From Gryganskiella cystojenkinii (lineage: Eukaryota; Mortierellomycota; Mortierellomycetes; Mortierellales; Mortierellaceae), in contig JAAAIG010000063.1 of the NCBI GenBank assembly GCA_015852425.1, forward strand, positions 16,279 to 80,278: DNA of 64,000 nucleotides. Direction: 5' to 3'. The notes under the pieces are model-generated. The model was not told the origin of the DNA. It worked only from the letters and a program-made list of their open reading frames with translations, and did no database searches. Below, one piece after another: positions 3,081 through 63,621 of the stretch. The position numbers and the translations under genes were made by a program. Each line of letters begins with the position of its first letter. The first letter of the stretch is position 1.

Positions 3081-3307
3081 GTTCATCCGCAGCAAGGTTA
3101 TTTCTTGCTACGTGTAAAGAGTTGATAGCTAGATTGTTCAAGAGGAATAAGGTCTGTAAGATTCGTTTGCTATTATTTTTTGAAAGTAAATACTCGCTAC
3201 ATACAACTATCGAAGGTGATTCGTGACCAGGGAGATGTCGACAGAGTGATGCTCATATGGCATTTTTATTGGATCCTCCTCGGTTGATCGTGAGATGGGA
3301 TGCGACC

Positions 3308-8677: not shown

Positions 8678-9759
8678 AGATGGTCCCGTTTCCTAATTAA
8701 GACAAAAGGACAGTGATGTCGTGTGAGTATGATTGGCACCAAGAATACTCGCGAGAAGGATGACCCACGAAGACGTTCCCATAGTTAGGCCTTCCTCTCA
8801 CCTTTGCAGATGTCGGCGACGTGTTATTTACCGCGACTTCTTTTTGGCTTATCTTCTTGCTTTTGATAAGAGGATAGCACCTGGAGCGATGGACGGTTTT
8901 TGATTATCTAAAGAATGGGTTTGTTTGTTAGTAGGATGACACGAGGTATCGTTTGGGCAGTGAGTGATAAGCATTCAAAGAAGAGGCTCACATCGACAAC
9001 AGGACGACTCGCTGGGTTTTTCCTTGTTGTTTAACTTGTGGGGAGAAAGGCGGTGTCCGAAAGTAGAGGAATGGATTCATATAAGTTCGTTGAGAAATTA
9101 CCCAAGAAAGGTCGTCGTTGTTCAGTGGGGAAGTCATGTCATCGCAAACCTACAAGTGTCTTTTCGTGAACCAAGACAGGACAATTTGATAGGAAACTAC
9201 ACTTACGGTGACTCACAAGTGAAAGAGTTGATATTACAATCTCAACAGATGGCAGATAGTGAATGAAGGCGCGTGAATCTTGAAATGTCAATGAAGAATA
9301 ATGGCAATGAAGAAATGGCAATGAGATTGATGATGAGCAACGAGACATATGGAAATTGGAGGAAATTTGTACTCCTTCACCTGCAGCTTTTCTGTGGTTT
9401 GCGGAGGGCACGAGCGTTGTTGGCGTCCGTTGGATGACAGAGCCCATGCATTGTTTGGGAAGAACAAACGAAAACGTTGATTGATGTGGTTGCTGTTGTG
9501 GTTGTGTTATTGTTGTTGTTGTCGTTGTCGTTGTTGCATATCGCTGGATCAGTCGAATCCTTTAGAGAGAAAGGCTTATTTACTACCGACTAGAGTCCGC
9601 GACAAGGACGCGTCAAGAACATTTTGGGCATGTTATCATCTTGGCTCCTTAATTGATACTACGATTGAATTTGAGGTTGGCTTTTATCTTTGTCCTTACT
9701 TTAATCGCACAGTATTCTTTTTGCAGTCCTTTTTTCGATGTGCCTCACAACACTCCAGT
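8678..9759. other. Intergenic/5' region of the NLR-like gene
   Basis: Contains the promoter and leader of the NLR-like gene, which runs leftward, and a TGT/CGT-rich triplet tract at about 9487-9537. Short frames occur on both strands without recognisable protein. Confidence 0.5.
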
Positions 9760-30159: not shown

Positions 30160-30601
30160 GGATGATGGCGGTGTGGGGTTGAATGGAGAGAGAAGGAGAG
30201 GGAGGGTCGAGTTCAGGGATTGGGAATGAGACCAAAGAAAGAAAAAGATTAAAAAACGATTAAAAAGATTAAAAAAAGGTCGTTTGCAGGGTTGCAGGCA
30301 GGCAGGGGTAGGTCCATAAAAAAAAAAACGTGCGAAATAAAGTCATTTTCGCTTCCATCCAGTCAGAGCAGCGAACAGGTGGGTGGTGGGTGCTCTCATT
30401 CCCTCTTTTCCCTCTGCCATCACTGACCCACGCGGTGCCTTCTTTCTTTTTTTCTTCTTCTTTGCCTTCATTCTCTCTCCACCTTCTCACGCATCCGTAT
30501 CATTATAATTATTATACATTTTATACATTTCTCCCTCCCAAATATTACTAGTATTGTCAGCAGCTACATCATCATCATCCCCCCCTCTCACCCAGTCTCT
30601 C
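30160..30601. promoter_or_regulatory. Shared upstream region, Hsp70-like and PPP1R37-like genes
   Basis: About 440 bases between divergent start codons. It contains CT-rich leader sequence toward the plus gene and poly-A stretches at about 30248-30280 and 30318-30329. No defined operator was recognised. Confidence 0.4.
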
Positions 30602-39819: not shown

Positions 39820-42102
39820 TCATTGTCTTCGCTTCTGATCCAACTTTTCTGCCGGAGGTTTCATCGAAGCCTCGGCGTAATCTGGGGGTGGGCCATCATA
39901 CCGTCTTTGAATCGAGGCCGAAGAAGGGTGAGACGCCAAAGAATCACTCTCGAACCCACTATTACTGCTGGAGCTTGTTGATTCGGCAGGGATACGGAAA
40001 CCGGGTTCTGTCGTCGTCGGTGGCAGTGGGACAATCGCCTGTGGATTCCGTGAATGCTGTGGTGCTGATGGTGGTAGGGCTTGCTGTGACGTTCCTGATG
40101 GTGGTGATGATGTTGAATAAGTAGAGGAAGACGGGCTCGGCGAGACAATGTTGATATTTGGCTGGTTTCCAGGGAACGAGACCGAGATTGGTTGCGTACG
40201 ACGACCTCCAGCCGACGGTGGGGAGGAAGACGACAACGGCGAGAAAGGTTCACCGGGGATATGTGGAACAGGCATCGGCATCGGCATCTGTGTTGGCAAA
40301 TAACCTCCGTTTCCTGATGGGTGAGGCTGCTGCTGTTGCTGTTGATGAGGTGGGTAGGAAGGCTGGCGCTGCATCATCAAAGGGTGGGGCAGATGAGGAC
40401 GCGAGGAAAGGTCTCCAGAGACGGGTCGACTGGTCCTGCCAGAAGGAGGAGAAGATGTTCGACCACTGTCGGATCCGTTCTCTCCCTGATGGTATGACGT
40501 TGCTGGTGTATACGTGGTTTTGGGAATAAACGGACTAGGGATCGGCATCCCACCAGACACAGGTGATGATGGAGAGACATCAGGAAGAGTCGAAGCGTTC
40601 GCCTTGGGAGTGTCCAGAGCTGTTGGTCGAGCATCCGTTGCTCCATCCGGAGCGTTCACTGGGTCGTCCGCCACAAAGATAGGAACTGGTTCAGGCACCG
40701 ATTCTGTAGTGCTGTTCGTCTTGGGTCCATCCTCCAGTTCGGGTGTTGGTGGGATCTCATTGATGACCTGAACCATTGGCACACCATCGATATAGGTCGT
40801 AGTGGTCATGACGGACGACATGCTGTTCCTTGGCGACATGGTTCCGGTCGAGGATGAAATCGAGTTTGTGCGGTTGTGATTTGGTCCTTTTGTCGATGAA
40901 GAAGAGGGCGAGCTGGGTGACTGGAGTTCGTACCAATCCGATTTTGTTTTGACAGCGAGATCCTGTAACATGGCATCCATGGCTTGTTTGTTATCCTTGG
41001 GGAAGTCGCCCAAGTCGATATCCGAGACTTGAACAATAGGCGCGTACTGAGACCACGATTGAAAAGTGTCGAGACATGCCTTAACAGAGTAGGCAGTCTT
41101 GGCTGTGCCTAATAAGTAAAAAAAAACAAAAAAAGAAGTCGGATATTTGTCAGTTGTGGGCAGAAAAGTGATGACACTTTCGTCAACAAATAAACAAAGA
41201 AAAAGTCGTCATGCTAGTGTCCATCCCGCACATTCTAACAGTTTCGCATCTGGTTAGTCTTACCCTCATATTCGGCGTAACGGTCGTCCGCATGCGTTCC
41301 TGCGGGTGTGGGGGTGTCGTCGATGTTGCTCATGATCCGTTTGCCATAGTAGGCAATCACAATCAGCTCCTTGCCCAACTTTTCGAGAGCATCCAACTGT
41401 CGAGTCGTGGCAGTTTTGATTTTCTTGCGCTTCAAGTCCTCCAGTTCATTCTCGACTGTCATGGTCTCTTGTCTCAGGAGCTTCATCTCTGGATGAATAT
41501 CGCCATTCACACTTCCGTTGATAGAGGAGGCTCTCGAAGAGGAGGATCCCTTACGGTTGCCACTGTGCGTGCTGCTGTTAGTGTGGGTCTTGTCCAGTGA
41601 AAGTCGTTGTTCGAGGTCGAGTTTTCGTTTCCGAACCGAATAGTTTTCGTCCTCGGCGACCCGGATCTCCTTGAAGAGTTCTCGAGATTCAGCGAGGCTG
41701 TCGGCATAAACACGTTCGAGGTCAGCGGCCTTCTGTATCAAGAGAGCGAGTTTTGAGAGAGCATCAGCGATATCAGGACCCTCGGTCTTGCCATAGAGGG
41801 CCAAATGCTTCGCAGCTAGTACAATATGGAGAAAGAGATAAAGAAAAAAAAAAAAAATGAGCGACGGGGAGCGTTTCTACTTTTGAATTGTGCCAAGAAA
41901 CGAAGAGTCGAGCGGGACGTCATTTACCTTCATCCTTCTCAAAAGCAGTTCGCTTTAGGGACGTGAGGACATTTTTCTGTTCCTGGATAAGGATGCGTAG
42001 TTCTGGAACCAGGCCACTCAACGGCGAAATGCCGTCGATGCCGCGTCGAATCCCATGCACAATCTTTGTTGCGCGCAAGCAGGGGTCAATGAGATGCGAC
42101 AT
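39820..42102 (-). CDS. Pil1/Lsp1-like eisosome protein with long disordered tail
   Basis: Three exons (42102-41928, 41815-41264, 41108-39820) sum to 671 codons in frame. Residues about 1-275 match the Pil1/Lsp1 BAR-type fold: ISPLSGLVPELRILIQEQKN, ALSKLALLIQKAADLERVYA, then LEKLGKELIVIAYYGKRIMS and DDTPTPAG. A Ser/Thr-rich insertion (NSSTHSGNRKGSSSSRASS) interrupts the coiled coil. Residues about 300-671 are Pro/Ser/Gln-rich and disordered, with a PPPDYAEA-type motif near the end. Pil1 and Lsp1 shape furrow-like plasma-membrane domains in yeast and are regulated by Pkh kinases. The yeast proteins have about 340 residues, so this one is nearly twice as long through its tail. No lesion is seen. 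Confidence 0.88.
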
Positions 42103-42678: not shown

Positions 42679-45600
42679 CTAGAGCCAAGGTGTCCACCCC
42701 TCATACATGTTGGCCAGATTCTCGACCAGAGTCGCTTCTTGGATCACCCGATCTACCTGCTCGGCCACTTTACATTTCTTGGCGGCATCGAAATCGCGTC
42801 CCTCGAGCTTGTGGCGAACTCGTCGGAGGATATTAACCGCGTATGCGTTTCGCTGATGAAGCGGAGGTGGCGGCTGTTGCAGTTGTTGGTGCGGTGGTGG
42901 CGCCTGGATCGACATGGAGCTTGCTCCGTTCGTAAGGGATGCCAGGGTCGCAGCATCCAATTGATCGCCTGCACCCGTGTTCCATCGTCCAGCGGCAGCG
43001 GCGAGGCTCTTGGAACTTGAATCCACCATCGTCGTCGCGGTCGATTGGATACTCCGGCTACTCACAGAGGCCATACTATCAGTCGATGGTCTGCGCCAGA
43101 GGTTTATCGATCGGACAGAGTTGTTATCAAACGACGCCATAGAATCCCGTTGACGATTCCTGGACGATGCATTCGTCGTGGTTGAACTCGAGACCACGCT
43201 TCCACTCTCGCTCTCGCTATCCACAGCCAGACCCTGCATTCCATCTCGCGACAACAACGAGGCAAGATCACCAGCAGTGTTACTACTGTTCGAGACCGCT
43301 GTGCCAGACGCAACCAAATTGGCCATATCCACTGCGGTGATTCCGTGGACACCTCCCACAGCTCCCGGTCCTCCAGCTCCTACAGGTCCAGGTGGGCCGC
43401 CTTGTGCCGCATTGACATCCACCTGCCAATCCACCAGCGGATCATACACAAAGGCCTCGAGAAGCGTGACCAGGATCTCCTTATTCTTGCGCATCACCTT
43501 CATAGTCTGTTCACACGCGATCCTGAAGTTACCCTCCACACCGGTCACACCCAAACTCGTAAGCATATTCCGAGTGAGTCGGAAGGGAACTATCTCAGGG
43601 ATCCTCAGCCGCTTGCCCTTCTCGAAACAGACGTTGTAATCGATATGGACCATGTCACCCGTCGTGAAATCGATCAAGATATTGTCCAAGTGACGGTCTC
43701 CGAGACCAATTACATAACCAATCATGGACATGACCGCGGTTGAACGCGAGAACCGGACAGATTTACGCCACCATTCGGCCAGGGTTGGACTTGATGCCCA
43801 GAGTTCCCGCTCCAACAGATCCGCGGGGGTTTCAGACGCCATCTCGTGATACAGATCCAACAAGAGTGATTTCGGCCACAGCTTGCGAGGATGGTTCGCG
43901 GGCAATCCTGCCTTCTTGAGGGCCACGACCGCCTTTTCGTTGTACACGTCCGTTGCTCGCTGAAGAACCTGAGGCGCAGCATTACTGTTGCCGCCACCAT
44001 TCGACAAACCAGCATCGTCGTTCATCCATCGGTTACACATCAGTTCCCGGTGCTGCCATTTAGCCACGACTGTAAAGATCGAGACCGTATTCTCGACCCA
44101 TTGGATCATGCCCGAGTTATCGCTCAATGGAACAACAGCATAATGACGAGCACTCAGCTGTCTCGAGTTCGATTCCTTGTCCCGCACGAGCATCCCGTTC
44201 GAAATCCTGAGGAGTTGCATAACGCGTTCGTCCAGGTGAAGATCCTCAAGGCCCTTGAACAAATACGTGTAACGTTTCCCGTCCGATCCTAGGAGACTCA
44301 GCTTCTTGGGTTTGGTCTTTGTTGGGATCACGACTACTTGTTGCTCAAATGACTGAATGGTCACGCCTGTGGTCTGGTTGGGGACCTCGATAAGGGACGA
44401 TTGGAGAGAGGACAGCTCGGGACTCAGATCGACCAGTTGCAGAATACGTGAACCCATGACTTCCTTGCCAAGATCGATATGAATCTGTATGGTACGAATA
44501 ATAAAGTTTGCCGTTAGCCATGCCATTGTTTTCGCAATCACCCCAAGTTCTCGTATTAACTCAGATAATGTGCTTTTCAATCTTTACCTCTTTCATTTTG
44601 GCCAGGCCTTCGTACATATTACCCCAAGATTTGGGAGAGCGCAAGCTATCCAGCGCATCCTGGATTCTGTCCCTGAAAGAGGAAAGGAACCATCGTTCAT
44701 GATTCGATTCCGGCTGAGCATTCGAATCCTGTAAACTCTCAAATGTTGCCAACAATGGGATCACCGTCTGCTGATAGTTATCAGACATGACTGTATGTTT
44801 ATCCTGTGGTCCCAAACCCGAGATGAGTTCCAATCCTTGATATTGCTCCGTCAGATCCTGGATCGCGCTCTTGATCTCTGGTACGCCTGACATGATCTTT
44901 TTGTACCAAATCTCCTCCCACAGGACAGTGACACGCTCTAGCTCCCGAACCAGATGCTGCACCTGTGAGACAAGCTCTGGATGAGACTTGATCAAAGCCT
45001 CGCCAATATGACGAAGCAACTTCCTTTGCACGAGACTGTTATGCGCCGAGTTGCTACCAACCACGCAGTGAAAGACAATCAGCTGTGGACTCTCCTCACC
45101 GATCTTACAGAGGAGATCTGCAATCAGAGATTGTACCGGTTTTTCCGGATGGTCGAGTCGAGCAAACAGCTGCGGTATGATATTAGCCCAAGGGCGGACA
45201 TTGATATCGACCAAGTTCTCCTCAAAGATATCGTAAAGTTGACCACCGTGCTTAGCAAGGAGTCGCAAGAGCCGCAAAGTCGCCGTGATCTCATCCGTAA
45301 TGACAGACTGCGATTGTTGCGTGGTATCGTCATCGTCGACCATGTTCTACAGGTCGAAAAAAGAGATATATAAGTATTTAGGTTGATACTGAAAAAATGC
45401 ACAGAAACAGAGTATGTCATTCGCCTGTTAGCTTACTTTTGATCCAGGCTGTCTACAATCAAATTCGAGAGAGGCAAACTGAAGGAACTTGAAGTAACCT
45501 CTGATCGCTAATCGGTAAGACTCCAAGATGCGCAACAACAGAGTCTGGAAGGACCCCACAATCTCTGAAATCACGTCTTCCGATTCAGAGATCCCCTCGA

Positions 45601-48600
45601 TCTTAAGCAAATGAGCTCTGATACTTTCATAGGCCACAGTCTCATCAAAGGGTTGACCGGACGCACAGTGTCTCACGAAGACAGAGAAAATATTCTAAAA
45701 CAGTAATATCGTTAGAGGCTGGAAACAAACGTATGTATGCCATATGTAGATGCACCCAGTTCGGCGGTGTCTTACCTTGGAATGCTCTGCCGCACGATCA
45801 ACGCCTGTTGCAACCAAGATATTCTTGAGCGTCTCATTCGCAGCCATCGCCACAGGATGATGAAAACGGAACGATCCAAGTTCGTCCAGGATGCCCCAGC
45901 CTTGCTTGTAATGATGAGTTCCGAACGCAAACCAAGATTTGCGGTAGTTGGCTCCAACCTCGATCGCCTTCTGAAGACAACTGGACGTGATCTTCTCGAT
46001 CCTTGCCTGAGGCGACTCTGGCGCATCATGCTCCAAGTCCATGATCGTCTCAAACGTCTGCAGATTATCGGTTGAAAATGGAGGTTTCGAGGATCGCGAC
46101 CATTTCGCGAGTTTGAGGTAAATCTTGCTCTCCAATACGTAGTTGGTCCTGGAATCCCTCGATGATGGTAAAGCAGCACCTCCTTGCATCATACCAAGTA
46201 TCCGCCGAGAAGATTCCAGCGCTGTCGAGTAATCATGCTTCGCCATGGCGGCTTTCGCTTCCTCGAATTGAATCTCTGGAGATAAGGCTCCTTCCCACGT
46301 CCTGGGGATATCACTAGCAAATTTGTGACAGTCCGACCTCCGGGCAATCTTCGAGAGCAAGAACTTGAACTCGTTGGATTGTTTCACAAACTGAGTATCG
46401 TCCTCGTTGACATGTTTCTTGGCCAGGTTTACCATGTTATCAAGTCGAACCCAATTCTTCAGATCCTTGTTGAGTAGGTTCATCTTGAGTTCGTCCGGAA
46501 TCTGAGCCAGTTGATCCATAAGTTCCTTCATCGCCATTGGGGTAGTGACCTCGGGTGTATTCAACATCATGATATCCATGTACTTTGCACTCGCATGACC
46601 CAATCCACTGCCAAATGAAAACTCTGCAGTCCATCGGGCGATTTGAGCAGCTTCGAGGCGCATAGAATCGAGATCCACCGTGCTGATACCGGCCTGCTGG
46701 TACATCTTGGAGGCAAACAAAAAGTTTCTTCCTTGTACCGCACTCTGCTCCAACGGAGTGAGCTCCAGATCCTGCGACTCCTTGCACTCGGTGCTATAGT
46801 ACTCTTCCAGGTGTGTCCAAGCCTCTGAGGTTTCACCTCCACAAAATTTCCTCAGACTTTGGTTCATCGCGTCCCCGCTCCAGGGGTAGGTCTGGTCCGA
46901 GAGAACATCAATGGGTATTGAGTCAAGGAAGGCTTGGAGGTCCTTGTAACTGCAGAGATCGCTAAGACTGGCCGAGATTTGGCGCGAGAGAAATTCTTCT
47001 GGTGGTGTGATATCGTCTGTCGATTGACCTTCCGAATAGGAGCCCACAAGAGGCACTGCGTCCTTTGTGAATTGTTCATATCGGTGCTATCACGTAGGGG
47101 AATGAGTGACACATGTCAGCGAAAAATCAGGGGTTCGATCACTAAAATGAACCTATTAGGCTGCATCCTTACTTGTGCCTGGGAAACAGCCGTGCTAATC
47201 CAATCGAGCGAAATCTGAGACAGAGCAGCGACTTGAGCGTCGGTCAGACAGGAATTTTTGTACCTTGGGTCTAAGAGGATGGAGAGACAAAAGCCGATGA
47301 ACATTTTTTGGATTCTATCGACCGATATCCATAGAGAAAAGAAACACAGTTACCACTTACATTGAGTAGATTTGTCAGATGAACGCGAATGACGCGATCT
47401 GCCGGTTGTTTGCTTGGTCATATCCTTGATTGCGCGCCGACACCAGACTTGTAAGCCTGTAATAGCATCCGCAGAGTTTGACACAAGAAGTGCTTCGACT
47501 ACAACGGAAAAAAAATTCAAATGATAAAAAGGTCAAAAAACTAATAATAACTAAGAAAAACTAAAACTAAACCCCCTCCCTCTAACAAGTGACGAGGCCA
47601 TAACAACACGACATGCAGATCCCCTGAACTTACCAAGGTCGACCAAAACTTGTTCAAAATCTTCAATCCAAGGGATAATATCGCTGACATTTCCTCTAGA
47701 AAGTGAATTAAATTGCTCTGCCAGCAGCTGCAGGCGAAAGCGTTAATTTCCGACTCAAGACCTATCGAAAATATATTCGAGGCAAATGCAAAGTTTTACC
47801 TACCATATATCCATAACGGATCACCATTTCGTGCTCATCTGTAGCCTTGGCGCCTTCGATAGTACGACTTCGCACGCGTGCAAACCATTCATCCCACATC
47901 CGCTTGTTGGATCGAGCAAAAACGATTGTCGGTTTTGGCGCCAGGGGAATTACGCCCAGTGCCGTCCCCTGAGCGGCATTGTAAAACTGTAGCTCTAGTC
48001 GGTCCAAAAAGTTGATAAAGTCCCTCAAGGGCTTTAACCTTGCAGAGTGAAGGGATGGTTTCATTTAAGTATGGAGATACAAATAGCGATTCGAATTTGA
48101 CAGACAAAAGAAATCACACAAAACTTAATTGTACCTCTCTTTCTGGTCGTTCTCCTTCTGGTCTGTCCGAAGCAACTTGTTCAAGTGCTTCTCCAAAGCG
48201 TCGAGAGTCTGTTGAGGGCCACCAAACGGCGTGCGCAATCGTGAAAGCACACAGTATCGGGCCGTCTCCCAGAGCGCCCAATACCGCAGTAGATTGTGAG
48301 AATGTTGGAATATCCCAAGTTGGTCACTAGTCACGGAGTCTGTGAGATGTTAGCTAGCTGATAGCACGAATAAAAAATAAAAAAAGTCGGCGATTTTGTT
48401 ATTTTTCGTACCAGCGTTGGGATCTGCGTTCACTTTTGTAAGAGTTTCTTTGCCTTGGCAAGCATGAAAGAGCCGCTGAAGCATATCGCCATCCTTAAAG
48501 TTTGCAATGTCCAAAGACCGAGATGCACTTTCAGTTGCCGATTCTTCGCTGGAGAGTGTCATGGACGAAAGGACGATCGAGAAATGCGGGTATCGAAAAA

Positions 48601-51561
48601 TGCCCGAGTTTGGCGTCTTTAGCACTAGGAGCTGGAAGATAGAATGCGATTATGTCATCAGCACTCCTGCACAATGTCATCTAAGTGCACCGCAGGAAGA
48701 AAGTTATTCCATACCTTCAAGGTCTGAAGCACATCTTTTTCATGGCGATTATAACACGCGAATGCAAACTCGAACGGGTTCGACTGAAAGACGACTTTTG
48801 TCCACGCTGCGCTCACTCGTGGTGATACGTCTGACGATCTACAATCCCAGTCGAGTCGTTAGCATTGCAAACTTTGATTTCCTGCTAAAAATGGCAACAA
48901 TTCCCATTCGAAATAGGTGCCGTACCTGTCGATCATGCTCACAAGAAGATCGGGACCAAGACTCATGGATCCATATGTAGCAATGAACTGCTCAAACATG
49001 GTCGCCATGTGTTCCCGAATAACCTCATCCTCCTCAGAGCCTAAATAAATTTAGTAAGAAACGGCGGGTTAAGACAAGTCATCACAATTCATTTCGGAGG
49101 TTCGGCGGTGACAACTATAATACCTGCTAAAATAACCAAGTTAGGGAGAAATGAAGAATGCCAGGTCTTGAGCATCCTCCATAGCCTTGTTCTATTCTCA
49201 GTTAAGCGATAGTGACGAATCCAGGCCTTTATACTCGCATCCCATGAAATAGCACATAACTTCATAGAGCTCGGTAGCACTCGCCACTGACAAAAAAATG
49301 CTTGAACGGCACCATGTACTCGGCCCAGAGGTGTCGTGGATATGATCGGGATGTCCTGTGACTCTGAGCGACTCTTTTCAAAAAGATCAGGAGCGAAGTG
49401 TCCACGTCTAACAAGAAGAGAAGGTTTTTTTAAATGAGAATAGCGCCGTAAACGCCGAGAAAGTTCCATTTGGATAAGGGAACACGGAAGCGTACCTTTC
49501 TGCGATTTCTTTGAGGGCGTAAAGGGTGATTGTCAGGCGGCTTTCAGGTACATCCACAATTTGTCTCAGGAATCGTGCAAACAACGCGAAGGATATTTCG
49601 AAGTGTTTTGAAATCTCGACAAGGAGCAAGATGTTGATCGTCAAGTTTGTAAGAAAGTCTCTTTCTGTCGATTTGTCGAAATCGCTGCCGCGATCGTCGC
49701 CATTTGCCTGTATCGTGTTGTCATCCGAAGGTAGTGATGCTGAACTCTGAATACACGACTTGAATTTTTCCCGATCCGACAGCAGGTTGCCCCGAGGTAA
49801 ATGCTGAAGAATACGCTCGATTTCATACATAATGCTGCACCAGGCGCGACCAAACGAGTCTGATTTATCTGCTGGTATGCTTTGTTCTTCCGTTGGTGCG
49901 GCAGGTAAAGCCAAGAGGATCATATCCAGAACATCTTGAGCACGTTCCGCATGTCCAGATACGCGCCAACGGCTCCGCATAAGATTGCTTTTGGTGTTTA
50001 GTAATTCGTGAGTGACCATTGGGTGGAGTTGTGGCCGCCACAAACCGAGTATCTATTTCCATATGATTGTTCAGCAAAGAGTCTGGTCACTATCTATTTC
50101 CACGGAAATATCGAGAAAGAAAAATAAATTTAGAATGGTGTCGAACATACCTTTTTAGTATACTTGACCATGTTTCGCCATGACGCCCTATCCGCCTGCG
50201 GATCAAATTGTTTGATGATGACTTGCAGCGCCTTGGGCTGCAGGGTATAAAATGTGGACACGTCTCCTTGGCTCAAAGTCAAAATAATGTCGTTGCCTAA
50301 GAAGGTGCATGAAATCGATCAGTCTAACGCTCTCTTGGGTATTGTATTATCGACAAGAGACCCTGCTGCGAAATACAAGACATACCGGCGGTGATGCAGG
50401 GTTTGTGAGAGGTCTTCATTCTAGAGATTGTGTCCACAGCGCGTTCCTGAATGGCAGGTAGCCGATCCAGCGAGACATAAGCGTGGCCAATCAATGGTTT
50501 GGCGATGATGTTGAAGCAGCTACCGATGAAGAGACAGGGTGGCTTGTCAGTATATTTTCTATACCCATTGGACGCCTATTGCCCACGAAACGTCTGATCT
50601 GTATCCTCTGGTCCATGATGATACCTCATGAGTAAGACAGCCGTCTCCATAGAAGAAGACACTCCTGTGGCAGTAGCGGACTCTGACATAATACTTTCTA
50701 TGTCATTGATGAAGAATTCCAAAAGGTCTTGACCAAAGTCTGCAGAACTGGTCCATTGCATTGAGAAGGAGGACAGAACATCTATTGCATGGAAAACCAA
50801 AAACCATGATAAGAAAGTCAGGTCATGTCCGGGTAATCCTGCTGGCGGTTTCGACCAGTCCCTCTAGCAATATCAAAAGCATACTTACCGCTGATGCGCT
50901 TCCTCACCGCGGCATTTGTTCCCAGGTCAACATGCCATCCTACGAGCAAGTCGATAATCGCCTGTTGTGAGCGAGAAAGGGTCAGTGTGAGTATGAATGA
51001 ATGTAGGCACGAATATTTCATCGAATTGAAAAGGTGATTTAGCTTTTCTGTCCATCAATGTTGCACACCTCGAACTTTGGCTCCCATGCGATCGGTTGTT
51101 GTCCTGACAGGATCAATAGCTGATCAAGGGCTGGAACCAATCCTGTGCTATCCTCTGTTCTGTCCAGGACATCCTGGATCTCCTCCAACATCGTGGTGGC
51201 GGTTTGCAAATCATATTTCACTTTGATGCCTGCGTGAAAGACCCAAAAAATAAAAAATAAAAGGTCAGCTGTGCGAATAATAATTAAAAAAAGGCGCGTC
51301 TGCCTGTTGGCAGTCTGTGTCCGATTTTTTTTAATATCTCAAGAATGTACCTTGGTTCTGCCGCAGTCCAGGAAATAGCTCTTGCTTTGGCGCAAATGTC
51401 GGTGCGTAGGACGGCGCGTGAGCAGCGTGCCTTGGCTGCGGGCGACGATGGACGTTCTTCTGTCGTGTGAACTGTGAGTGGGAAAATAAAAGGTAAGTGG
51501 GTATGAACTAGGTGTTTTGTGTGCAGAACACAGAAAGGTCTATGGAGTCAAAGGGTGACAT
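42679..51561 (-). CDS. smg1: SMG1, PI3K-related kinase of nonsense-mediated mRNA decay
   Basis: A long multi-exon gene. Exons fixed by splice sites and frame include 51471-51351, 51229-51069, 47727-47634, 47498-47361, 47270-47173, 47086-45776, 45694-45437, 45346-44588 and 44484-42679. The C-terminal exon carries the PIKK kinase: VVVIPTKTKPKKLSLLGSDG, LFKGLEDLHLDERVMQLL, catalytic loop GLGDRHLDNILIDF, the DFG equivalent HIDYNVCFEKGKRL, and a C-terminal FATC ending NLANMYEGWTPWL. The wording is specific to SMG1 among PIKKs. Upstream exons hold the FAT/HEAT solenoid, with DLLVGWHVDL near 50930. SMG1 phosphorylates UPF1 during NMD. The first exon is uncertain: an ATG at 51561 (MSPFDSIDLS) could splice through a weak gtgttc donor. 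Total about 2.4-2.7 thousand residues, below the animal size. Confidence 0.92.
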
Positions 51562-52272
51562 TGCTAGAACTGACCATGTGTTGACTCGAGTGACCGACCA
51601 GGAAGAGAGGGAGTGACACAGAGTGAAAGAGAGAGATGAAGAGAAAATGATGCTCGAATGGAAAAGGCGCTGCGAGGTGGAGAGGAGAATAAAGAAAATA
51701 AAAAATAGAAGGGATTCGCAAGTGCTTATGCGTGTGTAGGTTGAGTATGGGAGCCGTTGGTAGTCGGGGTTGTTCAGTTGATTCAGGCGAGGGAGGATCC
51801 GATGGTGGATATATTCAGCATTGTACTCGGATTCGAATTGGGGTCTGATGTCGAGATTGATTCGAACGAGCGCGACGTGGTCATGGATGGGATGAAAGAG
51901 AGAGGTACACTGCGCAAAAGAAAGAGAGAGAGAGCGTGTTCTGGAAGGTGAGGAAGAATGGAAGGCGGGCAAAGAGTAGATTGCAGATGAGATCTGCTTT
52001 TCTGTAATGTGGGTAATCAATCGAATGTATATGTGTGTGTGTGTGTGTGTGTGACGCAGCAATGCGAGAAAGCCATTTATTTTTTTATTTTCATCGAGTC
52101 AAAAAAGATTAGCCTCGTCTTTTATTCAATCAATCAAACACAGACACACACAGACACGGACTCTCTCTCTCTCTCCCTCCATCGACTCTTATTATTGTTC
52201 AAGCACGATCCACCCCGCCCTCTTCTCCAACACACTCTCCCTCCCTCCTTCTCTCTCTCTCTTTGGAATCAG
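51562..52272. promoter_or_regulatory. Shared upstream region of SMG1 and UPF2
   Basis: About 0.7 kb between the two divergent NMD genes. It contains pyrimidine-rich leader sequence on each side, a (GT)n tract at about 52029-52051 and a (CT)n tract at about 52160-52175. The missing first exon of UPF2 probably lies inside. No defined operator was recognised. Confidence 0.5.
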
Positions 52273-55200
52273 CAATCGTGGCGAACCGACAAGAGACTCG
52301 ACAGGCTAATTTGAGGGCATGGCTGACCAAGCCTGGTAATAACCCGATCTACCTACCATTTCGCAGAAACAGCATGGAATTACACTCTCTCTCCTCAAGT
52401 TGACTCAACCCCCTCCCCTCCCCCTCGTGACAATCCCAATTAGATCACTCTGCCCTCAAGAACTTGGACTCCAACATCAAAAAGAACACGGCCTTCATCA
52501 AAAAGTGCAAGACTGGACTCACCGCAGATGTTTCGACCCAACTGCTCAACGACATCAAAAAACTCAGTCTCGAAAAGTACATCTCCGAGATCGTTGCTGC
52601 CATCCTCGAAGGTCTCTTGCGCTGTAGACAAAGCGCAGATGTTGCTGCGGCTGTCGAGGTACGTTTTACTTGTCGATAACTGCCGTGGATTTTATTACCC
52701 GACATGGTCTCCCCCCCTCTCTCTCAAACAGACGATACTAACCATGCGATTTCATATACAAAAAAAAACTGGAATCCAACATTTATAGGTCATCTCGGCT
52801 TTGCATCAGCGGTTTCCGGATACGTTCACGTTGCTGTTCACATACCATCTCGCAAAGGCTCTCGCACCATCACCCAAACTGACACATCAACAGCTCGCTC
52901 AGGCAGGATCCACACCAGAACAACGCGAAAAGGAGGAGTCATCCAGGATATCTCGTCAACGCATCCTCTCCCGTGTCGCCACGGATCTCTGGCTCGCTGG
53001 CGTCTTGCGTAACATTGAGGACGGTGTGGCGACCTTGGGCGCTGAAGGATCGGCAGGAGTTTCCAGTAAAAGCGGACAGGCAACCAAGGACAATGTGGCG
53101 GCCTTGCTCGTCAATGGCACCAAGGATCCTAGGAGCGCAGTCGACGGCTCAAAGTCGCCCTCCAACTTTGTCTACTCATTCCTTCATGACTTGGTATGTG
53201 ACGACTGGGCCAATAGTCTGAGGCTACTGGTATATTTTTATGGAGCTTGGATCATCACCTACTCATAATTCAACTCGCATTTTACCAAAACACCTTGAAA
53301 ATAGCTTGCAGGAGATAAGGAGCACGTCAACATGCCCATCTTATTGATAGTATTGAAGATACACTGCAGGGACTTGACTGGTATCACACCCCGCAAATCA
53401 AAGCCTACATCGGATGCCGAAGCCAAGCCAGCTGCCACAGAAGAGTCTGCACCAGTGGAATCCGATGTCCCTGCCACACAGCAACAAATGTTCAAGACGA
53501 TGTTCATGGAATACTACAAGAGTTTGGAGGCGCATCTCGTTCGCGATAACAAAGTATGGCGCCGAACCTTACAGTCTCAATTTTTTTTTTTTTTTTTTTT
53601 TTGGGAGTGGGGATTACTGAACGAGACTAACCAGTCAAACGGACTTCATATGGGCAACAATAGGAGTTGAAAAAGCAGAAACGAAAGAACGATTCATCCC
53701 TGTTTGCGCGAGGCGAGTTGTCAGAGGAGAGGCAACAGCAGTTTGAAAAGCAGTTCAACGCCTTTGATAAACTCTTGACTTCAACTCAATCGATCGCGGA
53801 TGCTCTAGATACAGACATGCCTGTGCTCAAGGACGAAATAGAGGAACTTATCGGTATCGTCGAATCCACCGGTGGCTCCGAGGAGAAGGGACTCGCCAGC
53901 AAAGTCTTTGAGGATGAGGACAGTGTGATGTTTTACGAGCAAATCCTGGATCTCCGCACCTTGGTCCCAAAAATCTTTCTAGAGTCGACGAAATCCAAGA
54001 AGGATAAGAAGGACGAGGCTGCCGAAACCGACAAGGATGCTGAAAAGACTTCCAAGGCAGGAGGAGAACAAGGCGCTACCAGTGAAGTCGAAGGAGCTGC
54101 CGCCGCCAAGGAGGGCGATGGCCTGGATGATCTGGATGAGAATGCAGATCTCATGATGGAGAGTATGGACGCAGAACTGGAGGAACTCGATCTCAACGAG
54201 AATACCGGCACTGACTCTTTTCTTGCAGAGGAGACTGCAGCAACTGTTCAGGAACCTGTGACTACAGCCTCAAAGACAACCGCGACCCAGCTGGATGCTT
54301 TTCTGGCTAAACTGCCCAACATGTGCAACAGAGACATGATTGACCAGGCCGCCGTCGAATTTTGTTACATGAACTCCAAGTTGAGCCGGAATCGTTTGAT
54401 CAAGGTACGCTGAGTGAGCGTTTACCTATGATTGTCGCTAGACAACAAACTACAGTGAGGCCATGGAACTAAATGCTTTCTATTTTCTCACCGCCACCAA
54501 ATATAGACACTTGTACAAGTTCCAAGAGATAGACACGATCTTTTGCCTTACTACTCTCGCCTGATTGCGACCTTCAAGCCATTTTACCCCGATGTCGCTG
54601 AAGAAGTCCTGAATGCTCTTGAGCGAGAATTCCGTGGACTCCTCCGCAAGAAACATCTTGATCTGTCGGAATCGCGCACAAAGAACATCAAGTTCTTGTC
54701 AGAGTTGGTCAAGTTTGGGGTGACACCATTGCCCATCATCTTTTACTGCCTGAAAGTCTTGTTGGAAGACTTTGTTCCTCAGAACATCATTGTCGCTTGT
54801 TCGCTGCTTGACACCTGCGGCCGGTTTCTCAAGCTCAAGAGCACTGCAACCTCGACACGTTTGGACGTCATGTTGGATATCCTAAAGCGCAAGAAGGCCG
54901 CCCTCCACCTCGAGCCGCGTTTCCTCCTCATGATCGACAACGCTTACTACCAGGTATGGTTTGCGATTTCATAGCAAAGGATGTACTGCTGCGTTATAGG
55001 TCATCGCTCCATATATTCATTCACCTTTTTTTTTTTTTTTTTTTTTTTTTTTGGTGCTTATAGTGCAATCCTCCAGAGCAGAGCACCCGAAAGAAGCGTG
55101 ATATTCCCCCAATCGAGCAGTTCATTCGAAAACTACTCTACCTCGACCTTTGCAAGAAAAACGTGGAGTTGACCCACAAGCTTTTGCGAAAGCTGCACTG

Positions 55201-57114
55201 GGAGGACCCAGAGGTAGAAATCACCTTTGTACTTTTCATTGCAATATGGGATTATTATGCGTTTAAAAGGTCATTAACTGTATGAAACTCTACCGCCATT
55301 TTTTAGACTTACAAATTGGTCGTTCGGCTGTTCAGCAAAATTTGGAAGATCAAGTACAGCAATATTCATTTGATGGCGATCCTTGTCAACGGTCTTAGTC
55401 GGTACCACTCCGACTTCTCGATCGCGATCGTTGACTTTATCGTCGAGGGTATCAAAGTTGGACTGGAGCAGAACAATTTCCGTCATAACCAGAGGCGTAT
55501 TGCGATCGTCCGATTCTTGGGAGAGTTGTACAACTACCGAACGGTCGATTCGCCACTCATCTTTAACACCTTGGATACCCTCATTTCTGTTGGACATGGT
55601 AGGAGCTTGCGGAAGGGATTGGCGGACATTTAATTCTGGACGACAAAGAGACCAGAACCTAACTCGCTCAGTTTTTTTTTTTTTTTGGCGTGACGATTCA
55701 GAACAAGGTGTCGCTTCGCCTGACCGACCTTCTCCTGTCGACGCACCCAACGATTGCTTCAGAGTTCGCCTTATCTGCACGTTGCTCGACACTTGCGGTA
55801 TGTGCTTTGACCACGGAAGCTCTAAGATCAAGCTGGATTCGTTTTTGGTGGCGTTCCAGATGTACATTCTCTCCAAGGAATCGGTACCACTCGAGATTGA
55901 ATACATGATCGAGGACACGTTCACAGAGCTGCGACCCAAGCTCAGACGTTTCACGACATATGAGGAGGCCGTGGCGGCGATGGAGGCTTTGCACGGGCCT
56001 CTTGGAAGCAACGATGCTGCTGCAAACGCTAACAATGACGATTCAAGCTCGTCAGAATCCGAGGGCGATGAGGATGGTGACGATGATCAACAGGACGAAG
56101 AGGATGATAGCAGTGATGAGGAGGACGATGGTCTAGATGACGACGAGGATATGCATGCCATGCGTGAGATGGATGACGAAGAGCAAGCTGTTGTGCTCAC
56201 GAACCAGACTCGACCTGTAGAGTCCATCGATGAAGATTTCGAGCGCGAATATCTCAAGATGATGACAGAGAGTTTGGAAGCAAGAAAATTTGAGAGGAAG
56301 CATCTAACTCTGGATGTAGCAATCCCTGTTCTTCGATCTGCAGGTAAAGAATACTGCTTTTCAGTAGCTTTGAGATCTCGAGATGGTTTGTTATCCCAGT
56401 TTACTAAGGACCTGTGTTTAATTGATCATTCATAGATCGCCGCGAGGAATCCACATTGAGTAACCCAGATCATGTCGCATTTACGCTACTCACCAAAAAG
56501 GGTAACAAGCAGCAGTTGAAAACTGTTGGGCTTCCGAGCGACAGTGCTCTGGTCATCAACACCCGTAACCAGAGAGAGGCTGAACGCGAGGAGCAACAAC
56601 AGCTTAAACAGCTTGTGCTCGAATACGAAGTTCGCGAGGAGGCCAACCAGCGTGCCGGTAATTTCTTGTTCATTTACGAAATTTTTGTTTACTGTCGGCA
56701 TTCATGAACTTCATGATCTCATGCAACCAGCCATTATCTCAATCCAATTTTATCTATATAGCATTGGAACAATCTCTGCGAAACCAGGGCATCCGACTGA
56801 ACTTTACCGAGGACAACAGACGCATCGGGGCGCGTGATGTCTCTGGTGTTCCTCTCAACTCTAACAGAGGAGACCGTGGAGGTGAACGTGGAGGTGGAGG
56901 AGGCGGCGGAGAACGCACAGTTGAACGAAGCGGACCTGTTCCTGACCCACTTCGAAATAATAGTCGATGGGCTCGTAACCAGAGTGTTGGCGTCGGTGCT
57001 GGTTTCGGTACCGAGAGCGCGTTGACCAACCTGGGTGTGGATGGGTATGAGAGACGATCTGTTGGAGGACAGGCTAATAGAGGACGAGGATCTGGAAATA
57101 CTTATGGGAGGTAA
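52273..57114 (+). CDS. upf2: UPF2/NMD2, nonsense-mediated decay factor (5' end unresolved)
   Basis: Eleven exons join in one frame (52273-52335, 52444-52658, 52789-53193, 53305-53553, 53664-54404, 54507-54953, 55064-55213, 55307-55598, 55702-56343, 56436-56657, 56762-57114), about 1,256 codons. The N-terminal block RQETRQANLRAWLTKP leads into the first MIF4G domain (NIKKNTAFIKKCKTGL, ISEIVAAILEGLL, ALHQRFPDTFT). Further MIF4G domains contain LPYYSRLIATFKPFYPDV and YHSDFSIAIVDFIVEGIKV. An acidic stretch follows, then the UPF1-binding C-terminus (FEREYLKMMTESLEARKF) and an RGG-type end. UPF2 bridges UPF1 and UPF3. No in-frame ATG lies in the first block, so an upstream exon is likely (acceptor tcag before 52273). 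Three introns contain T tracts of 15-27 bases before the acceptor. Confidence 0.93.
53581..53602 (+). repeat. Intronic poly-T tract (T22) in UPF2
   Basis: Twenty-two T in the fourth assigned intron. Similar tracts stand at 55026-55052 (T27) and 55672-55686 (T15), each within an intron of the same gene upstream of its acceptor. Confidence 0.9.
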
Positions 57115-57873
57115 GGATTCTACTTGTCAAGGAGAAAGTTTATTTCTATTGGGGGCAACCTGCGGACCGAATCCCTGACCCTGCTCTTATAACTCATTTT
57201 TTGTCCTTGTTAGACGTTGATCATACTCTTCCGCGTGGATGAACTCACAACGTCATTTACATCAGGATATCTCTCCCCAGGTGCACTAGTCGACCTTTGC
57301 GCTCGTCTATTTCTCTCGACGCTCATTCATTTTTTGAGTGAGGTTACATTTCAAAAGAGAACAAGAGTTTTTTTTGGTTCGATCTTCCTCGTAGCGTCCA
57401 CACCCTTCTCACCCGTTCACGAGAAGAATGCATCCTATTATCCTCTCCATGCAAAGGATTGCGCAGAGAAAAGAGAATTTTGACTGTGGATATTTTTACA
57501 TCCGAATTTTGTCCGCCTTAGAGAGTGCAAGTCAAATCTTAGTTCTGTTCTTCCTCGAAGAGACAAATGTGGCACGAAATAAACAAACGTCAAGCTTCTC
57601 CAGTATGTATTCGTCTTTGTTTTTTGTATATAAAAGGTTGATCGAACCTAAGCATCGTCTACTGTTTCAGAAGCAATGAAGATTCGATCGGGTATGGAGT
57701 AAATTATTTTTTTTAAAAAAAACAATATTCATTGCAGGATTTTTGATTGTTCATTAACGGTAGGCAGTGAAGGCTAAACGAGGAAAAAAAGAGTCAACAT
57801 CGGTCAGATATAAGATTCACAAATTCTTGATAATAGATGAAATGCCAACAATAAAATAAAATAAGATAAAATA
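57115..57873. other. Intergenic between convergent UPF2 and kelch-BTB genes
   Basis: Downstream regions of two convergent genes. AT-rich near 57700-57880 with AATAAA-like elements for the minus gene. Short frames without recognisable protein. Confidence 0.5.
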
Positions 57874-60800
57874 TCAATTACCATTCATGGTTCCACTGAT
57901 CTGAGAGGTGGCCGCCTTACTTGAAGCTGCTGCGCGCTCTGCTGCCTTTTGTTCACGACGTCGTTGACTCTCCAGCTGTTTTTTGCGCTCTCCTTCTTGT
58001 TTCTTGCTCCGTTTGGACAACCTTCTGGTTAGGAGTGTATGATGCATCGTCGCTGCAGGTATCGGGTCGCTTTCAGTGTTGCTCTGGACACTAAAACTAC
58101 TGTTACTTCCTGCAGCTCCTTCCTCTTCATCAATCTCCGGGTTCTGGATCTGATCCAGACTCTGCGTGGACGAATGCATGGTCGACAAGGAGATGGAAGA
58201 GACCGTCGCGCTGGAGTAATCGTCTTTGTTGATCTCCTCCGACAACGGGTTCGTGGACGAAGACGGATCATAGACACTGTTGGTGCCATCGCTCTCGATC
58301 GAGCTGTAACTGTATCGTTGGTTCGAACTCTTGACACTGCTGCTTCCAGTAGAATCGAGTCCTCCCGCGGACTCGAAACCACGATCGATTTGGGTCGCGA
58401 TCGTCAGCCCGTTCGAGCCATGGGTTGGGGACGGGGTATGAATCGCTGAAGATGGTGTATCGCTGGCGACTGCAGGGATCAGCGGCGACAAGAAAGCAGA
58501 GGTGAGGTGTCCGTGGGGCGAAACGTCATCAGGCGGTGTTCGCCGTGACTGTTGTTCGTGTACCTGCTGCTGTTGGCGTTGTCGAGGTTGCTGCTGGTAC
58601 GGCGATTGTCCTGTAGATTGGACCTCCAAATGCGATGATTGGTGATAATGCGAGGGTCGGAAGTAATCCAAAGAACCGTCACGGGGCTTCATCGACAATC
58701 TTCTATGGATCTTTTGCGCAAGCGTCAAATGGTGAAGATGCTGCAGAGGTGTCGAGGGTACTGGTGCAGTCATATTCCTGGCAGGTGGGTGGGTGCTGAT
58801 CGCAGGCGACTTTGTTGGATCAAAGACATGACTGGGATCAATCTGTTGATTAACAGGGTGATGGAAGCTTTTGGAGCGCAGATGACTTTTACCAGGTTCC
58901 CAGGAGGACCCGGAGGTCGTGGCACTGACTGTTCTCATTCGCACATTTGGGCTAGAAATGATCGAGCCTAGATCCGTATCAAATTCGGGTGCATAAATCT
59001 GTCCAGTCGTTGATCCGGGTCCGTGGATAATAGTACCTCCTCCTACTCCAGAGGATGTCATGTCAGCGGATTCTTCCCGTCCTCGGAAAAACCGACCGAT
59101 CGCACCCAGACCAGGGGTCGAAGTCGCAGATGCCGAATTCGAAGAGGTGACAGAGCCGGACTTGATCGCTGCGGCTACAGCAGGGTTAAAGAGAGTTGCA
59201 TGGCCTGCACTAGGACTTCCCACTCGGGCCGAGTTGATGATTTCCTGGATCGAGTTTTGTTGTTTCATTGCTGAATCTTTACGTTTCCGATCCTCTTCAA
59301 TCTCCTCCAATCTTGAGACTGCAAACTCTAGTCGTCTCTTGGCCTCCGCCGCCTCACCCTGTCGACGCAACTGAGCTAGTCTTGCGCTCTGCAAGAGCGT
59401 CCTTAGAGCTCGCGTTTGGAGGCCATGTTCCTGCGTCAAGACGGCAACCTCACAGATCGAGGGCGCATTGTTCGCGTTGAGTTGTCGATAAAGCTCTTGA
59501 CGGACGAGTTGTCGAAGCCGAGTCAAATCGTAGATATGCGCGATGTGTAAAAGGCCTTGGAGATTCTTGAGCTTGAGTTGATGAACGGTACTGAGCTCGT
59601 TGGTATAGAGGTATTGCAGGAACCCGACCAAGATTGGAGTCGATTCTCGAACCACAATCTCGGACGGGAGGTCCTGCAAGTAATCCTTGGATATATCTTG
59701 CTCATCAGTCTCGTTTCTTGCTTTGGACTGCCGGATCTTGTCTCGTTCTACCATCAGGGCCTGGAAATAACCCCAACGTTGGCCCACAATACCGGAATTG
59801 ACTCGAACGCGACCGCCATCTGCGGAGCTGACCAAGACCACGTCCGAACCAATGCCGTCTCTCAACATCTGTAGCCCCATGTTCACGCCTAAAGTGCCCA
59901 CGGAAGGTTCATCCACAGCGGGAGAGATCTCGAACCCTTCGAGATCGACCTTGACGATGTGTGTAAAAACCGTAGGCACTGTGCTGTTCTCATCCTGCCC
60001 TAGTCCGTCCAGCATACTGGCCATTCCTTCATGGTCCCACCGCTGACCAAGGACATACAAGTAATTGACTTCAGGATCATGAACCGAATGCGTCCAATGA
60101 CCCGATCCTAGACCCTTGGACAGCTCGAGTTGAGTCCACTGATGGTTTTGGAGGTGATGCATCCAAACCGAGAACGATCGTCGCTTTGTCGGTTGGCCTT
60201 CCATCTGCGGCAACATCTCAGCACTTCCAGCGTCTCGCAAGAGTGTCGCCATAAGTTTTGAGGGCAGGTGCGAGTTATCCTGATTCACCAAGGATGCGCC
60301 AGAGAGCAAAAAATAATGATCGACGACATGACCGACGGGTGCAAGTAGCTTTGGTGGCAACAGTCCCTCGGTACTTCCGAGAATCGACGACGGCTCATCT
60401 AGTGCAGCCCATTCGGACCTCTGGTCCAAACGCAACTTGTACGACGCTGTCGATTCCTCCCAAGCGCCGGCTCTCGCCTGGACCTTGATAAAGTCGCGCT
60501 TGGTCCTGTACTCTTTATCTTCCCGGTTCGCATAAACGTAAATCGGTTGGAATGCAGGGATAGGGAGACGCACGGCCTTTGAGTCTTGCTGCGACTCAAG
60601 GCTTCTGGCTTCCTTCGCGACTGCGGCTGCATGCGTGACATTTTCCATCATCGCATTGGCCGCAGCTTGTGCCTGTTTTAAAGTCGCGCTGCCGATCGTG
60701 CCCTCGGAGCCTCGTCGAGATGTGGGTGAAAGAATGTCGGAACCGTTGGTACTGCTACCGCTAGCACTTCCTCTACGTCGAGAATTCTTTACACTCGGAG

Positions 60801-63621
60801 TCGGAGTCCTTTCCGGTGTTCCCACGCGGCCGCCTGAAGTCGTCGGTCTAGTCGGTGTTGTTGATGGTTTTGATTGTACCTTTTGTTCTCGTGCTATAGT
60901 CGTGGCAAGGTCATCGAGATCAAAGACGCTGCCGCTGGATTTTTGAAAGAATTTTGCAGGGACTGCATGGGTGACGTGTCCCGAGGTTGATTGCACTGTC
61001 GCCGAGCGTCCAGCAGTCTTGAGAGTGACGGGTCTCTGTGCGTTCGAATAGGACCTCGCGCGAGACCTTTCCGAATTCCCAGCACTGCTCGCAATTGATC
61101 CCTCGGGGCTCTTAGGGTAGCCTAAAGAGGATTGACGTGATCTTGATAGGGACTCGTCAAAGGTATGATGTTTAGTCAACGGAGTCGAAGGATGGGCATT
61201 TCCAGAGTCCATACCGAGACCAACCAGAGGTCCAGGAGAGGGTCTGTTGAGGCGATCGCCCCCTTGTTGATTCCAGATACTATCGTCTCGTTCCAATCCA
61301 AGAACTAGTCCTGACTCGCTCCTGAACCGTTGACGGAAATCTTTGGGAGAGGCTGGGATATCGAAGGGTTGACCCTCGCCACGATGCCAGGAGTTCTTTC
61401 TCGGATTGAGCAGTGGATCCAACATGGCCGAGGAAGGTGCGGGTGAGAATGACTGTTGCGGGGTCGAGGAGATATGCGCCAAATCAGCCGCAAGTGATTC
61501 CAGGTACCTACGTCGACGGCGAGCCATTGGCTTTTCATCTGAGGCGGCGACGGTGGAAAGATGACGAGAGTGATCACTTGAGATCCTGCCACCGGATGAC
61601 CAGACTTGTCGTTTGAGGTCAAGAACGTCAATTTCATGGATGGATTGTCCGTCGATCCCCTGACCTCCGACAATGACCATACGATCTCCTGAAAGGGAGG
61701 CCAAATGACCAGACCGGGGGACAGGAGGTGGGAGACTGGAACGGCGCTGACGTAACTCTGATTCGACTCTCTACAAAGAATTGAAAATTCACAAACGAGG
61801 GTTAGAAATGCTAGTCTGACGAAGAGCAATGTTGGTCCGTGTCACCATTGTGTCATCAATTCGTCTTTTTACGGTCGTGTGAACATGCCATAGTCCAAAA
61901 AGAGAAAAAGGTTTGGAGTGAAGAAAATTGATGTCATCAAGTGGTCCAACAATCTTACCTTTGGTGTAGACGTTGGTGAGTTCAGCAAATGACTCGGGGT
62001 ATCTTCTCCGAGGGCGGCAAAGTTGTTGTCCCAGGACAGCTGTGTGTTGGCCGATGATTCTGGCAGGGTATGCTTACGCGTTGTTGTTGGCGATTTGGGT
62101 TCAGACAAGGTCGTCAACGATGGTGTCATCTCCGGAGAGTAGGGCTCTGTTGTTGTGGGACTGGTGGCTATGGATGTGTTTATGGTGAGGTTCGAGTGCC
62201 GTGGCAACGACAGCGATCCCTCATCGATCAGTGACAATTGCTTTTCGGGACGTCGACGGTGGTAGAGCGTCGTCTGGGCTGTGACTGGTTGGATTGGACT
62301 CTCCCGGGCGGACTCGGCTTTCCTTGTTCGACTGTGGGCGTGGGCGAAGCTGGTTGGGATCCACCGAAGGGTCTCCAAATCCAAAATGTGGGTATCCCTC
62401 AAGCAGGTCTCTGTTCCAGTAGCCTCATCTAGGCATGTCCGACCTCCGTGGATTACCAGGTGAGCCTCATTCTCGTTCCCCCATCCTCGGAGGGACCCAT
62501 CCATCTGTACCAAAGGAGGCGCCGCAACGAGAATAGCCGAGTGATCATACCGTGCTCGAGGGGTGGGTGCGAAGGCGGTGTCTGGAAGGAAAACAGTTGG
62601 AAGGAAAGAACGAAAAGAAATGGGTGAGTTGATCACGTTGAGACTGTCCAAATAATGATGTCCAAAACATTTTCTGCCTTCGATCCCTATTTCCGTGCTT
62701 ACCCATGCTGCGCGATGCTGCAATGTTGTTGTTCTGGACTGTTTGGTGAATTCGAGGGGAGAGTGGATGAAAACGACTTACTGCGTTTGTTGTTGCTGAG
62801 AGTCTATTCTGTTGCTGTTGTTCCGCGCTGTTCTTTTTCGAGGAGTCGACAGTCTCGTTAACCCGCAGCCAAATCTGGGTCGAGAGATCTAGAACGTACA
62901 GGTCGTTCGTGGGCACTTTTGAACCTGCAGCTTTGCCCCCAAAGACAAACATTTTGTTGTTGTGGATCGTGGTCGTTGATCCGATCAGTGGTGGGGGGAT
63001 ATCACCAATGGTCTCGATCAAGGTTGAGGTTCGATCCGATAACGTGTAGGATTCTCTGGATTCCCGTTCTGTAGCGGCGGTGGCAACGACAGCAGGTCGA
63101 TGTTCTTGCTGCTGCTGCTGCTCTTCTTGCTGTTGGTTTCCACGAACGAGACCCGGAGTCGGTGGAAGAGGTATACTCTTGGGTATTGTGAGAGACTCTG
63201 GTGGAGGCACTGGAACGACGAGAACATGAGTCGTTGGGGCAGGATGGGTGTCGGTGTTTCCATCTGTGTTATTGTCGGGCAAGAGTTGAGTCGAGGGAAA
63301 AGAGAGTGTGGGGAAGGCGATGTGGCCTTGACTCTGGTTCCTTCGATGGCCTGTTCTAGTCGGTGATTGTCTCCGTTTGGGTGTTCCAGAAGCCGAGTTG
63401 ACGGTCGAGATGGGGAGGGAATAAGAGTACTTTGTTGGTTGACGTTCTTCGATTGTGGGGTCGTTAAAGGACGGGTACTGATCAGCACTCGGGACCCTCG
63501 AACGACTTCCAGACCGTCGTGATGATGGCGGATATGCATGATCTATCCTATCTGACGGTGCAGGAATAGACGAGGAAGGTTCGAGGGATGTGGGGGGTAT
63601 TTGTAGTGGAAGAGACGTCAT
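57874..63621 (-). CDS. Large kelch-BTB protein (MDS3/Pmd1/Ral2-like)
   Basis: Three exons (63621-62703, 62581-61959, 61770-57874) sum to 1,812 codons in frame. After a disordered N-terminus with a Gln run come kelch units: GSTTTIHNNKMFVFGGKAAG, then RARYDHSAILVAAP with HLVIHGGRTCLDEATGTE and DTHILDLETLRW, and SGHLASLSGDRMVIVGGQG with VLDLKRQVW. A Ser-rich spacer follows. The BTB-type region is at about residues 1090-1230 (GSDVVLVSSADGGRVRVNSG, VGFLQYLYTNELSTV, LLHIAHIYDLTRLRQLV), then a coiled coil (RRQGEAAEAKRRLEFAVSRL) and a long disordered tail ending in a Lys/Arg/Glu-rich helix. This order matches fungal regulators such as yeast Mds3/Pmd1 and fission-yeast Ral2, tied to Ras/TOR-dependent development; the precise orthology is inference. 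No lesion is seen. Confidence 0.82.

Follow-up and report, generated by a model that had tools for sequence, protein, structure and literature searches.

A head-to-head SMG1 and UPF2 gene pair in Gryganskiella cystojenkinii and its linkage, by proxy, across Mortierellaceae

The window analysed here, a stretch of 64,000 nucleotides, is part of one contig (C693) of the 35-Mb genome of Gryganskiella cystojenkinii. Two genes for NMD factors, both identified by sequence, lie in it head to head: SMG1 on the minus strand (51577..42679; 19–20 exons in our models) and UPF2, or BGZ83_009469, on the plus strand (52278..57220). Their likely start codons are 700 bp apart, the interval 51578..52277 forming a shared upstream region, and the two genes thus constitute a divergent pair, on opposite strands with 5′ ends (taken at the likely start codons) separated by less than 1 kb. 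This confirmed what the preliminary description had proposed, since gene identities, strands and a common upstream region of about 0.7 kb were borne out by domains, PDB matches and start codons; the spacing stood, and the exact gene ends had to be shifted slightly, to 51577 for the SMG1 start and 52278-57220 for UPF2. Downstream of SMG1, outside the pair, lies a gene for the eisosome protein Pil1 (minus strand, approximate extent 39820..41876), in two ORF pieces (39820-41208 and 41235-41876) of which the domain search covered only the second. On the other side, the Kelch-BTB gene BGZ83_009470 (minus strand, 57874..62582, the latter a provisional 5′ limit) is convergent with UPF2 and was used as a control neighbour. 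The remaining NMD genes sought map to other contigs: UPF1 to C669, UPF3 to C1032, and EST1-type matches to C552 and C633.

The assignment of SMG1 is based on several features. The minus-strand ORF 42679-44583 encodes a PI3K-like kinase domain (7e-61; 43423-44271) and a FATC domain (1.9e-13; 42682-42768). The five best distinct PDB sequences for this ORF are all SMG1 (399–434 bits), the next being mTOR (248 bits), so that among PIKKs the protein is nearest to SMG1; the SMG1 Pfam family PF15785 is present in the deposited model P0121 (108.9 bits). Six FATC matches (L001-L006) were found in the genome; ATM is reported as not found in Mucoromycota (PMC5709506). Our gene models are codon- and splice-based, and their 5′ ends differ from those of the deposited models. 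SMG1 likely starts at ATG 51577-51575, which is followed immediately by a donor and an intron and then by AAGAACGTC from 51459 downwards. The stretch AAGAACGTCCATCGT comes after a CAG ending at 51460, and its splicing to the ATG at 51577 gives M|KNVHRRPQ, to be compared with MKNVRRRPQ or MKSTHRRPQ at the start of SMG1 in several relatives. Splice scores of this first intron are weak (donor 0.97, acceptor -0.14), and the acceptor has no branch-site match. We did not adopt the start of P0121, at 51191, as both the relatives and the DNA of the window reach further upstream.

UPF2 was recognised on the plus strand by its MIF4G and Upf2 domains. Over its full length the deposited model P0001 carries three MIF4G stretches and PF04050, the region that binds UPF1, which together identify it as UPF2, and PF04050 matches a single locus of the genome, in two exons (56175-56339 and 56444-56623). 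Scans of the genome-contig and viral-contig collections found no relatives of UPF2. Coding for the N-terminal block of UPF2 in relatives, RQ(E/D)LRQANLRAW, begins at 52287, and its reading frame has no ATG upstream. The block is preceded by GTG GCG AAC at 52278 (context AATCGTGG), with A at -3 and G at +4 of the candidate GUG, and UPF2 probably starts at this codon, the first coding exon then being 52278-52335. Among 29 UPF2 models from Mortierellaceae, 20 are without this exon, some of them partial or cut further; the nine with it have Val at the place of the GTG in four cases (with unlike extensions), Met in one and Leu in two, and two are unalignable there. The alternative to the GUG reading is a small, unseen 5′ exon carrying the start. 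In a search upstream for such an ATG-bearing exon the best donor scored 1.53 and fell in a GT microsatellite, and no branch-site match accompanied the acceptor; the latter is a weak argument, because the accepted SMG1 acceptor lacks such a match as well. The deposited start of P0001 (MGAVGSRG...) was rejected since it skips the exon whose product aligns with the UPF2 N-termini of relatives. On the 3′ side, the C-terminus YGRR, found also in P0001 and P0027, is recovered by an intron at 57112-57213, and on this basis the stop most likely lies at TGA 57218-57220.

The shared upstream region contains a GT microsatellite and long pyrimidine tracts. On the coding strand of SMG1 (minus), pyrimidine-rich tracts occupy 51870..51990 and 51600-51720, and on the plus strand another (52140..52262) lies directly upstream of UPF2, so that mirror-image tracts precede the two genes and point outwards to each of them. 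The plus strand accordingly switches from purine-rich to pyrimidine-rich at 52113 (0.337), which ranks fourth in strength among the switches listed for the window; the one at the top, at 30391, is between two other diverging ORFs, and others are listed at 3153 and 63850. The composition of 51578-52277 thus fits two promoters placed back to back and does not single out SMG1 and UPF2. With starts only 700 bp apart, and with another diverging ORF pair of similar appearance in the same window, it could be argued that overlapping promoters make any divergent pair resist breakage, because a break would damage one or both of them, and that the partnership of the two products is coincidental. We regard this as rather unlikely, in view of the low prior chance that these genes would be neighbours at all. 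For one given pair the probability of adjacency is about 2 in 9,470, a gene number taken from locus tags, which reach at least 009470 in the G. cystojenkinii assembly. NMD factors number about nine, and for any two of them the figure is about 0.8%.

Adjacency in a single genome nonetheless means little, since anyone who reads through a large number of genes will meet many possible pairs, and it is the linkage in relatives that lifts the SMG1-UPF2 case above chance. Gene order in relatives was assessed by proxy, from the contig sizes and locus tags of deposited homologues, in which strands are not visible. By this measure, 14 of the 29 UPF2 rows from Mortierellaceae have SMG1 on the same contig. 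Thirteen of the other 15 were unscorable, having no SMG1 row surely from the same assembly (five species among these have SMG1 rows on contigs of other sizes, possibly from other assemblies), and no Podila assembly could be scored; in the remaining two, SMG1 is on a different, truncated contig. When the count was confined to assemblies whose strain name or tag by itself allowed them to be recognised in both lists, the contig was shared in seven of eight. The sole exception, E. beljakovae, has an SMG1 model labelled partial and devoid of an initial Met, and in Dissophora globulifera both SMG1 and UPF2 are partial, with no initial Met and with their 5′ ends missing. Such truncated models are expected if the assemblies broke in or near the shared upstream region, where the microsatellite and pyrimidine tracts may cause breaks. 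As the linkage rests on a proxy with strands unseen, we considered whether it could be an artefact of contig sizes or of wrong gene models. This appears very improbable, given that contig sizes of five to seven digits are exactly equal for same-named organisms 14 times (e.g. 20742, 22142, 31776 and 36813 bp) and that SMG1 and UPF2 bear consecutive tags in two assemblies (EDD11_003412/003413 and BGX34_000626/000627).

In a tree of 35 UPF2 proteins, whose deepest forks are unresolved, linked assemblies are spread over the family. One of them is Actinomortierella wolfii, whose lineage, shared with A. ambigua, has the longest internal branch in the family (0.46). Outside Mortierellaceae, SMG1 and UPF2 are on different contigs in 14 of the 15 species represented by a single row in each of the two lists (R. 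irregularis and Gigaspora margarita, with mixed clusters, were left out): Fennellomyces, Zychaea, Dichotomocladium, Phycomyces nitens, Umbelopsis isabellina, Circinella minor, Apophysomyces ossiformis, Diversispora, two Ambispora, two Funneliformis, Rhizophagus clarus and Basidiobolus ranarum. Six of these 14 involve a contig shorter than 50 kb and say little, and eight are on contigs longer than 100 kb. The one outside species with both genes on the same scaffold, of 1.93 Mb, is Radiomyces spectabilis (P0051, P0180). The suggestion in the preliminary description that the linkage may be conserved is therefore upheld within Mortierellaceae, with 14 assemblies, and not for Mucoromycota at large, and it appears to be ancient and specific to this clade rather than general. 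A literature search covering openly accessible journal papers found no title that was taken to report SMG1-UPF2 adjacency; one paper, PMC8664836, contains the terms SMG1, UPF2 and bidirectional promoter. The linkage across Mortierellaceae, as seen by proxy, is new here.

A retained pair could also be a passive remnant, in which a Pil1-SMG1-UPF2 block has been left unbroken by chance and two independent promoters stand back to back with no selected co-regulation. The control neighbour argues against a region that simply does not rearrange, since Kelch-BTB is away from UPF2's contig in 12 of the 14 assemblies where it could be identified, and on it in two, while the SMG1-UPF2 linkage persists (7/8 versus 2/14; Fisher p = 0.0015, a test that treats related species as independent). 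By the same proxy, the pair is thus linked more often than another neighbour of UPF2. This comparison is weakened by the possibility that Kelch-BTB is a recent gain beside UPF2 in the genus and not an old neighbour lost by others. Moreover, some traces of a block do exist: Kelch-BTB is still on UPF2's contig in L. zychae EC991, 17 tags away, and on SMG1's contig in M. alpina (3.7 Mb), E. parvispora (2.95 Mb) and L. gamsii (128752). On the other side of SMG1, single models containing both SMG1 and Pil1 domains were found in Podila humilis and Entomortierella beljakovae, so that Pil1 lies beside SMG1 in at least two relatives and simple synteny of the block may account for some of the retention; however, the Lunasporangiospora SMG1 model runs into GH31-type domains (PF01055 and others) in place of Pil1. 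Taking into account also that the promoter region looks ordinary for the window, a passive origin deserves serious but less than even weight.

The explanation that we favour, at about an even chance, is that SMG1 and UPF2 are a divergent pair retained in Mortierellaceae and most likely governed as one bidirectional control unit. The two back-to-back promoters of the 0.7-kb region would act as a single unit, and SMG1, the kinase of UPF1, and UPF2, a UPF1-binding factor, would be made together. Such a mechanism would involve head-to-head orientation in the relatives as well and a common regulatory element, and selection for co-expression would be the reason why the linkage was retained. The pair itself is real and is linked across much of the family, and it may plausibly operate as a single regulatory unit. 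UPF1 (L009, L015) has nine SQ/TQ sites in its N-terminal ORF piece, three before the first Met and six within the first 100 residues after it, and 11 in its C-terminal ORF piece of 156 aa; the clusters at both ends include the motifs MSQES and LSQDS. The retention of these sites indicates that the SMG1-UPF1 axis is probably alive. With regard to SMG8/SMG9, PF10220 gave no match in the G. cystojenkinii genome, but the controls likewise gave none.

Comparable arrangements are known elsewhere. Integrin alpha and beta genes of Corallochytrium and Capsaspora are likewise partner genes kept head to head in the long term (PMC5560861); for them orientation is reported, together with co-expression in Capsaspora, whereas for SMG1 and UPF2 in relatives the proxy provides linkage only. 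Divergent pairs with putative bidirectional promoters and starts less than 1 kb apart have been described (PMC2648788, PMC2670823), to which the present pair, on opposite strands and 700 bp apart, is similar; it differs in joining two core factors of one pathway and in that its spacing is taken from start codons, not transcription starts. If co-regulated, SMG1 and UPF2 would represent a natural case in which gene order coordinates the NMD kinase with a partner of UPF1, in fungi that have retained SMG1, unlike Dikarya, where it was lost; the pair offers a simple test of selection for the physical linkage of partners.

SMG1 has already been described in non-Dikarya fungi (PMC5709506), and G. cystojenkinii SMG1 has the kinase, FATC and PF15785 in common with those proteins. 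By contrast, Mortierellaceae SMG1 is without the insertion domain of about 1000 residues between kinase and FATC. The gap is 201 residues in G. cystojenkinii SMG1. As measured by regex, it spans 98-201 residues in 40 of the 41 Mortierellaceae-type rows (which include P0156) and 892-1245 in 45 of 48 other rows measured (79 in all), the exceptions being Funneliformis caledonium (666), Synchytrium endobioticum (278) and a partial Paraglomus sequence (197). Two Umbelopsis rows, outside this measurement, are also short-tailed, at 409 and 432 residues when counted from the HIDYN motif. The insertion is typical and not defining, since C. elegans SMG1 is without it, and several Amorphea have previously been reported to have lost it (PMC5709506). 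We do not tie the loss to the gene linkage, as Umbelopsis SMG1 is short-tailed, yet the two genes are on different contigs in U. isabellina. Removal of the insertion domain hyper-activates human SMG1 (PMC8592573), and Mortierellaceae offer an opportunity to study how an insertion-less SMG1 is controlled. A speculative and, in our opinion, improbable answer is that SMG1 was rewired in this family, with the cis-autoinhibitory insertion lost and control transferred to dosage, through a single bidirectional promoter common to SMG1 and UPF2 and through an inefficient GUG start of UPF2 that would fix the kinase-to-UPF2 ratio and could possibly be tuned by NMD or stress. As for gene order, its mention in the available text of PMC5709506 is limited to the synteny of lost SMG1C genes in Arabidopsis.

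Elsewhere in the window, the minus-strand ORF 3308-8692 (1794 aa), as read from its sequence, apparently encodes an NTPase of the NACHT type, after which come numerous nearly identical WD40 repeats.
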